Shown: positions 7,183 through 11,686 of the stretch, piece after piece
How the letters are laid out: every line of letters begins with the position of its first letter
Numbering within the stretch: the first letter of the stretch is position 1
Assembly: GCF_007995015.1 (NCBI RefSeq)
Contig: NZ_VORB01000011.1
Span: forward strand, 1-64,000
DNA from: Luteibaculum oceani
GTDB taxonomy: Bacteria > Bacteroidota > Bacteroidia > Flavobacteriales_D > Luteibaculaceae
Direction of reading: 5' to 3'
Length of the DNA: 64,000 bases
Position numbers and translations under genes: made by a program
The notes under the pieces: generated by a model
Database searches by the model: none
The model's input: the letters and a program-made list of their open reading frames with translations, nothing else
What the model was told of the DNA's origin: nothing

Positions 7183-8457
7183 TTAGTTAGAAATGTTGCT
7201 GAACATAGGTTCTATGTCATTAAAAAATGAAGGGTAAGATTTTTGAACGGCACTTGGTTTTTCGATGATAATCGGAGCTTTCGAAACGGCTGCAAAAGTA
7301 GCCCCCATCATGGCTATTCTATGGTCGTTTCTGGAGGAAATGGAACCACTGTGAACAGGGAACCCATGGATTTTCATCGTGTTGTTTTCCAGTTCAACTG
7401 CAATGTCCAACCTAGAAAGTTCCTCCTGAATGGTTAATGCTCGGTTACTTTCTTTGTGCGTTAAACGATGTGTTCCGTGAATTACAGAGGTTCCTTTGCA
7501 ATTTGCAGCCAAAACGGCCAACGGAGGGAAAAGATCTGGACAATGGGTTGCATCAAACTCAAATGCATTGAGTTGGTTTTTCTCCACGGTAATTGACTTT
7601 TCTTCCTGATTCCAGGACCAACGCGCCCCCGCCTTGTCTATGGCATGTATGATTTGCATATCAGCTTGAGAAGAGTTTATATCCAAGCCCAGTAATTTCA
7701 CTTTGCCCGAAATTGCGGCTCCCACCACATGAAAAGCAGCACCACTCCAATCACCTTCTGCATGGATATGAATGTCCTGCGTAAGGGATGGGTTAAAAGG
7801 AGGAATTACAAATTCCTTGAACTCCCTGTTTTCGATGTGGATTCCAAACTCCTGAAGCAAATCCAAGGTCATTTGAGCATAAGGTATGCTTTTAAGGTTG
7901 CTAACTGAGATTTTTGTTTTTAGGGGTTGATGGGATAACGCAATTAGCAATCCTGTAAGCAGTTGCGAGCTGTGCGAACCATCAATACTGATATTTTGAG
8001 CTTGGGCTTTTCCTTCAGTAAAAATGGGTAGTTTCTCATTATTGGATTTCACTCGTGTTCCCAGCTGCTCCAGCGCGTCGATAATACCAGGTAGGGGGCG
8101 GTATAAAAGGGATCCCTCACCGGAAATGCTGCATTGCCTAGATAGCGTTGCAACTATGGGAGCAAACATTCGAGTGCTTAAACCTGCTTCTCCACAGTTT
8201 ATCTCTATGGTTTCCAGGTCGACATTTTTTGTGCCGATAATTTGCAGTTCACGATCGTTTATTTCCCAGCTGGCACCAATTCTGCTAGCTATTTCCAAAG
8301 CTGCTTCTACATCATTACTTGGGGTGTATCCAGTTATTATCGTTTTCCGTGGTTGGAGGCTGGCAATGGCAATAGCTCTTTGTAAAACACTTTTTGATGC
8401 GGGTGCAATTATTTCTCCGCTGTACTTAAAGGGGGGAATGCTTAGGGTAGGTCGCAT
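7183..8457 (-). CDS. aroA: 3-phosphoshikimate 1-carboxyvinyltransferase (EPSP synthase)
   Basis: 424 residues, the usual family length. This cytosolic shikimate-pathway enzyme joins shikimate-3-phosphate and phosphoenolpyruvate to give EPSP. The N-terminal phosphate-binding segment reads APASKSVLQRA near residues 17-27. GEAGLSTRMFAP is near residue 88, HSSQLLTGLLIAL near 160, and the HRLTHKESNRA and NDHRIAMMGA motifs are in the C-terminal half. The common family segment has GNAG where this has GEAG. It is the last gene of the operon; its start overlaps the end of aroB by 16 bases, so the two are translationally coupled. Confidence 0.92.
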   Translation of the reverse strand: MRPTLSIPPFKYSGEIIAPASKSVLQRAIAIASLQPRKTIITGYTPSNDVEAALEIASRIGASWEINDRELQIIGTKNVDLETIEINCGEAGLSTRMFAPIVATLSRQCSISGEGSLLYRPLPGIIDALEQLGTRVKSNNEKLPIFTEGKAQAQNISIDGSHSSQLLTGLLIALSHQPLKTKISVSNLKSIPYAQMTLDLLQEFGIHIENREFKEFVIPPFNPSLTQDIHIHAEGDWSGAAFHVVGAAISGKVKLLGLDINSSQADMQIIHAIDKAGARWSWNQEEKSITVEKNQLNAFEFDATHCPDLFPPLAVLAANCKGTSVIHGTHRLTHKESNRALTIQEELSRLDIAVELENNTMKIHGFPVHSGSISSRNDHRIAMMGATFAAVSKAPIIIEKPSAVQKSYPSFFNDIEPMFSNISN

Positions 8458-9440
8458 AGGTCTATGGCTTTAATTTTTGGCGAACCAATTTCTTCGAGCA
8501 GTATAAAGTCGATTTTAGATTGGATGCGCTTTTTGTCTTTTGAAATTTTGTTTTTTAATGCATTAAATTCTAATGAGCTGAGGTCTGTAGGTAATCCAAA
8601 TTGTCTGAGTAAGTTTTTAATTTCTAGTTGTTCCTTTTCAGATAAAGCCGTTTGTTTTTCAGCCAGTTCATTTGCTACAATAATCCCCATACTTACCGCA
8701 AAACCATGTGGGATATTTAAATGGGTTTCTATGGCGTGCCCATAGGTATGTCCGTAATTCAAAATTTTTCTTCCACCAATTTCTTTGGGATCTTTTGCCA
8801 CAATTTGGGCTTTGATTTCAACTGATTGTCGAACCATCTCCAGTAAAATCTCTGGGTTTTTCTCTTTTATTTCGGCTGCATTTCGCTTTAGAAATTCGAA
8901 GTACCCAAAAGAATGGATGCAAGCATGCTTTATAACTTCCGCCATGCCGCTTGTGAACTCTATATCTGAGAGAGTATTAAGAAAGTTGATGTTTATATGA
9001 ATTAAATCGGGGTGCTGAAGGGTTCCAATAACATTTTTGTACCCGTTAAAATTCACACCATTTTTACCGCCAATTGCCGCATCCACTTGCGCAAGAAGGG
9101 TAGTGGGGATAAAAGAAAAGTTTATCCCCCTGAAAATGGTACTTGCGATAAACCCTGTTAAATCGCAGGTTACCCCACCGCCAACAGCAATTAAATTGGA
9201 TGACCTGTCTATGTTTAACTCGAGCAATTGTTGTATCACAATTTCCGTATACACCAGCGATTTAGCGCCTTCACCTGCTCTTATCAGGATTATCTTATTC
9301 CAAACGTCTTTAAAAAGACCAGCATAGATTTTGGCAACATTTTCATCCACCAAGGCTACCGTGTTTTTGTCTTTTAAAAGATCATTTAGTTCTGTTACCA
9401 ATGGGGCTTTAGAAACCGTTATTTCGGATAGATTATACAT
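8442..9440 (-). CDS. aroB: 3-dehydroquinate synthase
   Basis: 332 residues from the ATG at 9440. An in-frame ATG at 9515 would overlap the upstream gene by 83 bases and add a non-conserved tail; the ATG at 9440 overlaps the upstream stop codon by only 8 bases and gives a normal start (MYNLSEITVSKA). The enzyme turns DAHP into 3-dehydroquinate using NAD and a divalent metal. The NAD-binding part shows GGGVTCDLTGFIASTIFRG, followed by TLLAQVDAAIGGKNGVN. The metal-binding histidines lie in NYGHTYGHAIE and HGFAVSMGI. A second step of the same pathway, aroA, follows with overlap. Confidence 0.93.
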   Translation of the reverse strand: MYNLSEITVSKAPLVTELNDLLKDKNTVALVDENVAKIYAGLFKDVWNKIILIRAGEGAKSLVYTEIVIQQLLELNIDRSSNLIAVGGGVTCDLTGFIASTIFRGINFSFIPTTLLAQVDAAIGGKNGVNFNGYKNVIGTLQHPDLIHININFLNTLSDIEFTSGMAEVIKHACIHSFGYFEFLKRNAAEIKEKNPEILLEMVRQSVEIKAQIVAKDPKEIGGRKILNYGHTYGHAIETHLNIPHGFAVSMGIIVANELAEKQTALSEKEQLEIKNLLRQFGLPTDLSSLEFNALKNKISKDKKRIQSKIDFILLEEIGSPKIKAIDLCDLP

Positions 9441-10515
9441 TGATAACATCACTGAAAATTTTACCTTGGTTATCAATTGATTCTTGATGAATAGTTCGGT
9501 AAACCTTAGAAACAAAGGTTGGGGTTAAGCCTAGTTTTTCTCCCTTGGCCTTGTTTTTCAAAAGAAGTTCATTCCAGCGCTCTGCCTGGAAAATTGTCAT
9601 GTTGTTCTCCTTTTTAAAACGGGCAATATTTAAAGCAACATTCATACGGAACTGCAATAGCTCCAGAATTTGGTCGTCTATGTAATTGATAGAATTCCTT
9701 AGTTCGTCTATATTTTTTTGAACCGTGTAAGGAGTTTCATCGGTGCGTATAATAAGCTGATCTAGGATGCAACTCAGTTGTTCGGGAGTAACCTGCTGAC
9801 TGGCGTCGCTCCAGGCCTCATCTGGGTTGGGATGGGTTTCTATCATTAGCCCGTCGAAGTTTAGATCCAAAGCTGTTTGCGCAATACTGCCAATTAGTTC
9901 CCTGTTACCGGTAATATGGCTGGGATCGTTAATAATGGGAATGGTTGGAACTTCCTCTCGAAATTTAATAGCCATTTGCCATGCCGGCTTATTTCTAAGG
10001 GTGGATTTTTCGAACTGACTGACTCCCCGGTGTATGGCTCCTAGGTCTTTTATCCCTTTTTTCTCTAATCTTTCCAGCGCTCCTAGCCAAAGAGCTACAT
10101 CTGGGTTTACTGGGTTTTTTACCAAAACGGGGATGTCAACTCCAGCAAGTGCTTCTGCTATTTCTTGCACGGCAAATGGGTTTGCCGAGGTTCTAGCTCC
10201 TATCCATAAAATATCTATTCCGGCCTTAAGTGCCTCGTAAACGTGTTTTACGTTTGCAACTTCGATGGCCACGGGCAGTCCTACTTCGGTTTTAACACGT
10301 TGTAACCAGGGCAGGGCTTTACTTCCATTACCCTCGAAAGATCCAGGTCTGGTTCTAGGTTTCCATACTCCGGCCCTGAATACATTAACTCTTTGGTCTT
10401 GTTTTAAAGCCTTTGCGGTTTCCAATACTTGTTCTTCGGTTTCCGCGCTACATGGGCCTGCTATTACAAGCGGTTGATGCTCGGGAATAAGTGGTGATAT
10501 AATTCTCTTTTTCAT
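9433..10515 (-). CDS. Bifunctional DAHP synthase / chorismate mutase
   Basis: 360 residues. The N-terminal two thirds are a DAHP synthase of the KDPG-like (AroA-beta) type: AGPCSAETEEQ near residue 19, FRAGVWKPRTRPGSFEG near 45, WIGARTS, VLVKNPVNPD and IIDPSH-like INDPSHITG. This catalyses the first step of the shikimate pathway from PEP and erythrose-4-phosphate. The last 90 or so residues are an AroQ-type chorismate mutase (INYIDDQILELLQFRMNVALNIARFKKEN), which makes prephenate from chorismate. In related Bacteroidota and Gram-positive fusions the mutase domain also serves feedback control. Its ATG overlaps the pheA stop as ATGA. Placing both ends of the pathway in one protein fits an operon aimed at phenylalanine. 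Confidence 0.9.
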   Translation of the reverse strand: MKKRIISPLIPEHQPLVIAGPCSAETEEQVLETAKALKQDQRVNVFRAGVWKPRTRPGSFEGNGSKALPWLQRVKTEVGLPVAIEVANVKHVYEALKAGIDILWIGARTSANPFAVQEIAEALAGVDIPVLVKNPVNPDVALWLGALERLEKKGIKDLGAIHRGVSQFEKSTLRNKPAWQMAIKFREEVPTIPIINDPSHITGNRELIGSIAQTALDLNFDGLMIETHPNPDEAWSDASQQVTPEQLSCILDQLIIRTDETPYTVQKNIDELRNSINYIDDQILELLQFRMNVALNIARFKKENNMTIFQAERWNELLLKNKAKGEKLGLTPTFVSKVYRTIHQESIDNQGKIFSDVINV

Positions 10516-11381
10516 ATTAATTGAGGGGTTAAAATGTTATCGTTTTGCTCAAATTTTGGGGTTGGACAGGGTGAACTATTGTACCTGCCAAGAATTTCTA
10601 AATCGTCCAGATAAAAGGAGATTTCGTGCATACTGCTCTCAAAAATGTGAGGGCTTGGCAGCACTATTTCTAGGTAAAATCGATATCGAAAAACGCTATC
10701 GGGAATAGGGACCGAGACGATTTTTGTAAGGTTTATTTTTAGCTTATGAACAACCGTAAGCAAATTAGCGAGGGCGCCAGGAGTGTCTTGCAAAATCACC
10801 GATAAACTGATTTTATTTCCAAAGACCGGTTCGGATTCCTTTCCCAGGATGGCAAATCGGGTGATGTTGTTTTGGTTGGATTGGATGTTATTAGCTAAAA
10901 CTTCTAAACCATATTCCTTTATGGCATTTATGCTTCCAATGGCCGCCAAGCCGGGGTCATTTAGGGTAGCTATTTCTTTTAGGGCAAAAGCGGTGTCTCT
11001 GGCTTCAACAAGATCAATTTTGGGGAATGCCTCAAAAAAGTCTCTGCACTGGTTTAATGCCATGTAATGGGATCTTACTTCTCGCAAGTTGGTTAAGGTA
11101 GAACCGGGTATTGCACCTAGGTACTGCTTAATTGGTACAAACACTTCTCCTACCATTTCGCAATTGCCCTCTCTAATAAGGTTGTAGTTATTTAATATGG
11201 TTCCAGAAATGGTGTTTTCAATGGCCATCACTGCGTAATCCGCTTCATTACCATCGAGTGCCTTTATTACTTCTGGAAAATTCTGACAGCAAAGGCATTC
11301 TATATTTTCACCAAATGCTCTGATCGCGGCTTCCTCGTGGAAGGCTCCTTTAATTCCCTGAATTGCAATTTTTAATTTCAT
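10512..11381 (-). CDS. pheA: Prephenate dehydratase with ACT domain
   Basis: 289 residues. It converts prephenate to phenylpyruvate, the phenylalanine-specific step. The catalytic domain starts KIAIQGIKGAFHEEAA and contains NNITRFAIL, whose Thr-Arg-Phe is the family's catalytic signature. The C-terminal ACT domain (about residues 195-275, DTPGALANLLTVVHKLKIN) is the usual phenylalanine sensor; the ESRP motif of proteobacterial enzymes reads VSVP here. This is the first structural gene of the operon. It follows two leader peptides and attenuators on the same strand. Confidence 0.92.
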   Translation of the reverse strand: MKLKIAIQGIKGAFHEEAAIRAFGENIECLCCQNFPEVIKALDGNEADYAVMAIENTISGTILNNYNLIREGNCEMVGEVFVPIKQYLGAIPGSTLTNLREVRSHYMALNQCRDFFEAFPKIDLVEARDTAFALKEIATLNDPGLAAIGSINAIKEYGLEVLANNIQSNQNNITRFAILGKESEPVFGNKISLSVILQDTPGALANLLTVVHKLKINLTKIVSVPIPDSVFRYRFYLEIVLPSPHIFESSMHEISFYLDDLEILGRYNSSPCPTPKFEQNDNILTPQLI

Positions 11382-11394
11382 AGTTGGTTGGAAT

Positions 11395-11423
11395 AAAAAA
11401 GGCCACTCGATGGGAGTGGCCTT
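11395..11423 (-). terminator. Proximal attenuator terminator before pheA
   Basis: On the minus strand AAGGCCACTC (11423-11414) pairs with GAGTGGCCTT (11408-11399) around CCATC, followed by a run of T (to 11395). It lies 14 bases before the pheA start and 25 bases after the stop of the second leader peptide. A possible antiterminator partner, GGGAG at 11448-11444, overlaps that stop codon and can pair with CTCCC at 11416-11412. Confidence 0.85.
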
Positions 11424-11447
11424 AAATCATTATTGCATAATATCTCC

Positions 11448-11507
11448 CTATTCGCTTTGATGCGTGTTATAGAAGTAATACCAGAAATAGAAAGTGTTTG
11501 ATTTCAT
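11448..11507 (-). CDS. Aromatic leader peptide 2 (proximal)
   Basis: A 19-residue frame, MKSNTFYFWYYFYNTHQSE, lies upstream of pheA. Residues 6-13 are eight aromatic residues in a row (3 Phe, 4 Tyr, 1 Trp). This is the hallmark of a transcription-attenuation leader: if charged tRNA-Phe, tRNA-Tyr or tRNA-Trp is scarce, the ribosome stalls here and lets an antiterminator form. The stop codon overlaps the predicted antiterminator strand, so a ribosome that finishes the peptide would cover it and allow termination. The coding, spacing and terminator are seen directly; the mechanism is inferred from the trp and pheA leaders of Proteobacteria. Confidence 0.88.
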   Translation of the reverse strand: MKSNTFYFWYYFYNTHQSE

Positions 11508-11517
11508 AATGTTGAGT

Positions 11518-11553
11518 AAAAAAAAAAGCCTGCTTCGGTAGAAGCAGGCTTTT
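11518..11553 (-). terminator. Distal attenuator terminator
   Basis: On the minus strand GCCTGCTTC (11549-11541) pairs with GAAGCAGGC (11536-11528) around TACC, flanked by AAAA and followed by ten T. It lies 28 bases after leader peptide 1. GAAGCTAGG at 11580-11572, directly after that peptide's stop codon, copies the 3' arm with a one-base bulge and can pair with CCTGCTTC, giving a classical antiterminator. Confidence 0.88.
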
Positions 11554-11580
11554 AAAATTGATCAATATATACCTAGCTTC

Positions 11581-11631
11581 TTATCCAGAATAATTAAAGT
11601 AATAATAGAAGAAAGAAGCGCTTTGTGACAT
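11581..11631 (-). CDS. Aromatic leader peptide 1 (distal)
   Basis: A 16-residue frame, MSQSASFFYYYFNYSG, with FFYYYF at residues 7-12 and another Tyr at 14. It starts about 20 bases after a plausible Bacteroidota promoter. Its early codons (AGCGCTTC, 11622-11615) can pair with the antiterminator strand GAAGC at 11580, giving the protector arm expected of a four-segment attenuator. It lacks Trp, unlike leader 2, so the two may sense different mixtures of aromatic tRNAs. Confidence 0.88.
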   Translation of the reverse strand: MSQSASFFYYYFNYSG

Positions 11632-11652: not shown

Positions 11653-11686
11653 CAAATGAAGAAATAAAATATGGTAAAAACAAAAA
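11653..11686 (-). promoter_or_regulatory. Candidate promoter of the aromatic operon
   Basis: On the minus strand TTTTTG (11686-11681), 20 bases, then TTCATTTG (11660-11653), one mismatch from TAnnTTTG. It sits 22 bases before leader peptide 1, which is where a promoter for the leader transcript is needed. Confidence 0.5.

Follow-up and report, generated by a model that had tools for sequence, protein, structure and literature searches.

The window, by which we mean the whole 64,000-nt stretch of DNA analysed here, carries on its minus strand a biosynthetic operon (7183-11381) composed of the following genes.

10512-11381, minus strand: pheA, prephenate dehydratase, the first structural gene (PF00800, E 1.9e-54)
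9433-10515, minus strand: DAHP synthase fused to chorismate mutase, aroF/CM (PF00793 and PF01817)
8442-9515 as listed ORF, minus strand: aroB, 3-dehydroquinate synthase (PF01761 and PF24621)
7183-8457, minus strand: aroA, EPSP synthase (PF00275)

The ATG of the DAHP synthase/chorismate mutase gene overlaps the pheA stop codon, and the true start of aroB probably lies near 9443. The operon contains no aminotransferase gene; such a gene follows pheA in L011, L014, L015, L018, and L019.

Upstream of the operon, and reading along the minus strand, a promoter-like element is followed by leader 1, terminator 1, leader 2, terminator 2, and the pheA ATG at 11381. Each leader and its terminator constitute a module, module 1 being distal to pheA and module 2 proximal, with the following parts.

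11653-11683, minus strand: putative Bacteroidota-type promoter, TTG (11683-11681), 20-nt spacer, TTCATTTG (11660-11653)
11581-11631, minus strand: leader peptide 1, MSQSASFFYYYFNYSG, stop TAA; orthologous leader 1 in L011, L012, and L015-L017
11613-11619, minus strand: module 1 segment 1, GCTTCTT (codons 5-7), potential pairing with AAGAAGC (11582-11576)
11572-11581, minus strand: module 1 segment 2, AGAAGCTAGG, forming the antiterminator with CCTGCTTCT (11548-11540)
11524-11553, minus strand: module 1 intrinsic terminator, 13-bp stem with loop TACC, followed by a T run
11448-11507, minus strand: leader peptide 2, MKSNTFYFWYYFYNTHQSE, stop TAG
11484-11493, minus strand: module 2 segment 1, TTTCTATTTC (within codons 5-8), potential pairing with GAATAGGGAGA (11453-11443)
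11444-11448, minus strand: module 2 segment 2, GGGAG, forming the antiterminator with CTCCC (11416-11412)
11399-11423, minus strand: module 2 intrinsic terminator, 10 bp with 6 G-C pairs, 5-nt loop CCATC, then TTTTTT

Aromatic residues account for seven of the 16 residues of leader 1 (3 F and 4 Y) and for eight of the 19 residues of leader 2 (3 F, 4 Y, and 1 W), where they form an uninterrupted run, FYFWYYFY. An earlier note on this DNA had placed leader 2 and its run of eight aromatic residues including Trp correctly (11507-11448, minus strand), and the hairpin that it reported just before pheA, with a 10-bp stem and a T run, is confirmed at 11423-11399. The two modules, their order, the competing pairings and their conservation can all be read from the sequence itself.

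As AT-rich DNA abounds in Phe and Tyr codons, short ORFs of this kind might be expected to lie next to ordinary terminators by chance. We searched both strands of the 64-kb window for modules defined as an ATG ORF with at least seven aromatic residues in nine, followed by a terminator. Exactly two modules were found, both upstream of pheA, while no module was recovered in 20 dinucleotide shuffles of the whole window or in 2000 shuffles of the local region. Together with the conservation of the modules across the class (see below), these results already refute a chance origin, which we consider next to impossible.

The Bacteroidota promoter consensus is TTG-N17-21-TAnnTTTG. Applying this rule to 18 tandem loci, with one mismatch allowed, we found in most of them a promoter-like element 16-58 nt upstream of the leader 1 ATG; the window is among these, and its element shows one mismatch to TAnnTTTG. 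The same rule applied before leader 2 in the 18 loci yielded no convincing element, except for a weak one in L017. At 91 single-module loci, perfect TAnnTTTG motifs peak 21-40 nt upstream of the leader ATG (34 found versus 0.8 expected). Because terminator 1 and leader 2 are separated by about 16 nt only in the window, there is too little room for a separate promoter, unless it overlaps terminator 1; transcription might nevertheless also begin between the two modules. Since the promoter-like element lies upstream of both modules, these are in series and polymerase must pass both. The earlier note had proposed two complete leader-terminator modules in series before one operon, and this proposal holds, as there is one upstream promoter and the arrangement is conserved and recurrent in the class.

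Predicted switching of the leaders

The leader RNA is much more strongly folded than shuffled sequences (z = -5.2). Each antiterminator starts at the stop codon of its leader. In module 1, it consists of AGAAGC(U)AGG paired with CCUGCUUCU of terminator 1, with a pairing energy of -15.3 kcal/mol (p = 0.015 against shuffles). The antiterminator of module 2 is short (5 bp) and its pairing energy is -9.6 kcal/mol (p = 0.06 on its own against shuffles); the AGGGAGA/CTCCC pair is retained in L011 and L012. Pairing between segments 1 and 2, which would make the 1:2 pause/protector hairpin, can be drawn in both modules but does not exceed that of shuffles in either (-11.2 kcal/mol and z = -1.0 in module 1; -8.7 kcal/mol and z = -0.4 in module 2).

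We then folded transcripts cut just before the 3' arm of the terminator emerges, with the ribosome footprint masked. In the window, the antiterminator (2:3) forms when the ribosome stands on nearly every aromatic codon (median of 11.7 pairs in module 1 and 6.6 in module 2) and is lost when it stands at the stop codon (0.2 and 0.1 pairs, respectively), and L011 and L012 behave in the same way. Masking of the footprint by itself accounts for some of the disappearance at the stop codon; what carries information is that the footprint there covers the best antiterminator. Over 16 tandem loci, the switch was obtained for module 1 in 15 and for module 2 in 10, compared to 31% with a shuffled segment 2, in a test restricted to a segment 2 outside the ORF; some long proximal leaders (f20, L079) may have theirs inside it. 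In L018, no clear antiterminator was found for either module.

When each segment 2 was confronted with the terminators of other loci, pairing with its own terminator proved better (p = 0.0001 for module 1, for module 2, and for single modules alike), which indicates that segment 2 and terminator changed together. The prediction is thus that antiterminator and terminator exclude each other, a stalled ribosome leaving the antiterminator free and one at the stop codon covering it. According to this calculation, an untranslated leader would give read-through, unlike the E. coli trp leader.

Distribution among Bacteroidia

We examined 160 pheA upstream regions of Bacteroidia, a few of which are duplicated between collections (about 150 distinct regions). 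A single module is the usual state (about 90 regions). Two modules were called in 30 regions, corresponding to about 23 genomes once four duplicates and three doubtful calls are set aside; the latter (L083, L122, and L172) were discarded by eye, their extra hairpins being weak or overlapping the leader. The genomes with two modules are those of the window, UBA6051 (L011), Crocinitomicaceae DT_24 (L012), L014, L015-L017, a Bacteroidales genome (L018), all nine Pontibacter (L019-L027), one f18 (L079), three f20 (L161, L176, and L189), one f97 (L169), and one f99 (L193). As a control for detection, a single module was called in 11 of 160 reverse complements and in two of 160 shuffles, and two modules never. 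A phylum-wide PDT search returned mostly distant genomes, without modules. Conservation of the peptide frames in relatives had been set beforehand as a check on the earlier note, and both modules turned out to be conserved.

In a pheA protein tree (FastTree, 119 rows), at least seven changes are needed to explain the tandem state, whose occurrences are spread over five or more separate positions, a count that is rough given the many weak forks of the tree. In the window's own neighbourhood, first modules match first modules and second modules match second modules. In L013, the 330 nt before pheA contain a single module, which combines the peptide of its sisters' module 1 with the 3' flank of their module 2, as would be expected from a deletion of module 2 by recombination between two similar terminators.

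Two further observations concern other lineages. Pontibacter pheA sits inside a Flavobacteriales-like tandem clade, apart from f20 and f15 (support 86), and a horizontal transfer of pheA together with its tandem leader into Pontibacter is possible. In f79, pheA has no aromatic leader module in the eight genomes seen (L070-L072, L074-L076, L078, and L080), and its regulation must differ from the leader-module type.

The signal and alternative readings

We propose, with high confidence in what the sequence suggests, that two ribosome-mediated attenuators in series behind one promoter, responding to one shared Phe/Tyr signal, control pheA-aroF/CM-aroB-aroA. In each module, a ribosome would translate the short Phe/Tyr-rich peptide. 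With ample charged tRNA, it would reach the stop codon and cover segment 2, so that the terminator forms; with scarce charged tRNA-Phe or tRNA-Tyr, it would halt upstream, leaving segment 2 to pair with the terminator's 5' arm, and polymerase would pass. As polymerase must pass both terminators, overall read-through should be roughly the product of the two; and as the tRNAs read are the same in both leaders, the pair would most likely leak less and respond to one signal more steeply and over a wider range. Leader translation, stalling, termination and this product rule are what we infer from the arrangement.

The earlier note had interpreted the two modules as an AND gate, possibly sensing different tRNA shortages. 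The mechanical part of this proposal stands, as both terminators must be passed, whereas two separate signals are not supported and one shared signal is probable. A true two-input gate, in which for example leader 1 would sense Phe/Tyr and leader 2 Phe/Tyr/Trp, would fit the distribution of Trp codons. As the earlier note had pointed out, leader 1 lacks Trp, and this is true of all 16 tandem loci, while leader 2 contains a Trp codon in five of them (p = 0.04, kinship ignored), as do 34 of the 91 single-module leaders; moreover, the DAHP synthase of the operon also feeds Trp. However, Phe and Tyr prevail to the same extent in either leader: in the window, each leader has three Phe and four Tyr codons, the lone Trp codon of leader 2 being the sole difference, and over the 16 tandem loci the F:Y counts do not differ between leader 1 (61:47) and leader 2 (62:50, paired p = 0.31). 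In addition, neither leader contains Trp in L011, L015-L017, and most other relatives. With two modules in series, a shortage of Trp on its own would leave terminator 1 in place, and the Trp codon is thus unlikely to be a separate input, barring a leaky leader 1. The same genome also seems to have a Trp leader of its own at trpE: a short ORF with a Trp pair, MDYTKVNIIWWTRR, followed by a terminator, lies upstream of a trpE-like gene (G000 C6, locus L201 783-886; other attenuators of this genome were checked at trpE-like loci only). This candidate single Trp attenuator would be a better Trp-sensing site than leader 2. Taken together, we judge a two-signal gate quite improbable.

Alternatively, one module only may be active, the other being either a duplicate in decay or a terminator that acts constitutively. 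The terminators of both modules are alike in the f3/g13 lineage, L013 has lost one module and kept pheA, meaning that modules are dispensable and deletable, and the evidence for switching is weaker for module 2. Against this, neither leader of the window has lost its dense aromatic codons or its stop-codon antiterminator, and diverged relatives retain both modules. We therefore regard a single active module as unlikely; the double module is real and conserved, and most likely functional.

The Tyr codons of the leaders may be related to the way Tyr is made. We found no TyrA (prephenate dehydrogenase, PF02153) in the window's own genome, which is 99.9% complete and encodes a divergent Biopterin_H (phenylalanine hydroxylase-like) protein of 555 aa (C7:179138-179947). 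Several tandem relatives similarly lack TyrA and have the hydroxylase; others have TyrA in place of the hydroxylase or besides it. Tyr may be made from Phe here; if so, pheA would supply both, in keeping with the presence of Tyr codons in the leaders. The idea that tandem modules go with the loss of tyrA was dropped, as L014, L018 and the f18 and f20 genomes have both TyrA and tandem modules.

More broadly, and only tentatively, in-series attenuator duplication may have evolved several times among the pheA operons of Bacteroidota, each time yielding a steep, low-leak switch that multiplies two read-through probabilities, with the leaders of some lineages (those with Trp only in the proximal one) diverging into a true two-input gate; this wider scenario is possible but doubtful.

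Comparison with known systems

The classical leader-peptide attenuators of aromatic operons are those of E. coli pheA (pheL) and trp (trpL). The modules described here resemble them in having a short ORF of cognate codons, an antiterminator competing with an intrinsic terminator, and a cognate biosynthetic operon downstream. They differ in that two modules stand in series, in another phylum and behind another type of promoter, with a weak 1:2 hairpin and without any family matched in an Rfam scan of the window. Attenuation has reportedly been the subject of a comparative study by Lopatovskaya et al. in 2010 (cited in PMC4833913), which may already mention tandem pheA attenuators. Searches of the open-access literature gave no example of tandem attenuators preceding an amino-acid biosynthesis operon, consistent with the earlier note, which knew of no tandem aromatic attenuator in Bacteroidota.

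Tandem attenuators are nevertheless known in other contexts. In the Salmonella mgtCBR operon, the tandem attenuators mgtM and mgtP respond to ATP and Pro-tRNA, and tandem attenuators with different signals were termed a singular example (PMC3641672). As in mgtCBR, a single leader RNA (here, one predicted transcript) holds two leader ORFs, each with its attenuation module. However, the mgtCBR modules have different signals, are additive and lack an intrinsic terminator (PMC3641672), whereas here both have the same Phe/Tyr-rich make-up, and strong intrinsic terminators precede a biosynthetic operon. Closer in terms of signal is the mefA/msrD macrolide operon, in which two leader peptides, mefAL and msrDL, serve the same signal in what its authors call a double lock (PMC10314930). 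There, however, the signal is a drug, the terminator of the first leader precedes mefA, and the second leader, located downstream of the first, regulates msrD only (PMC10314930), while in the present case both modules precede the first gene and would sense amino-acid shortage. Finally, for the same gene in the same phylum, a structured 5' element was reported upstream of Flavobacterium psychrophilum pheA, along with clues for leader-peptide attenuation of amino-acid operons; the parts of that report consulted describe no tandem arrangement (PMC9723704), and our survey indicates single modules in most of the class.

Leader-peptide attenuation of pheA thus appears widespread in a phylum where attenuation has been little studied, and the presence of tandem lineages beside close one-module relatives offers a ready comparison for asking why switches are stacked (leak, steepness, or dynamic range). 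Textbook amino-acid attenuators are single devices, whereas here we find what seems to be a natural same-signal pair in series. With respect to the open-access literature, tandem leader attenuators were already known from mgtCBR and mefA/msrD; what appears to be new is a same-signal series attenuator before an amino-acid biosynthesis operon.
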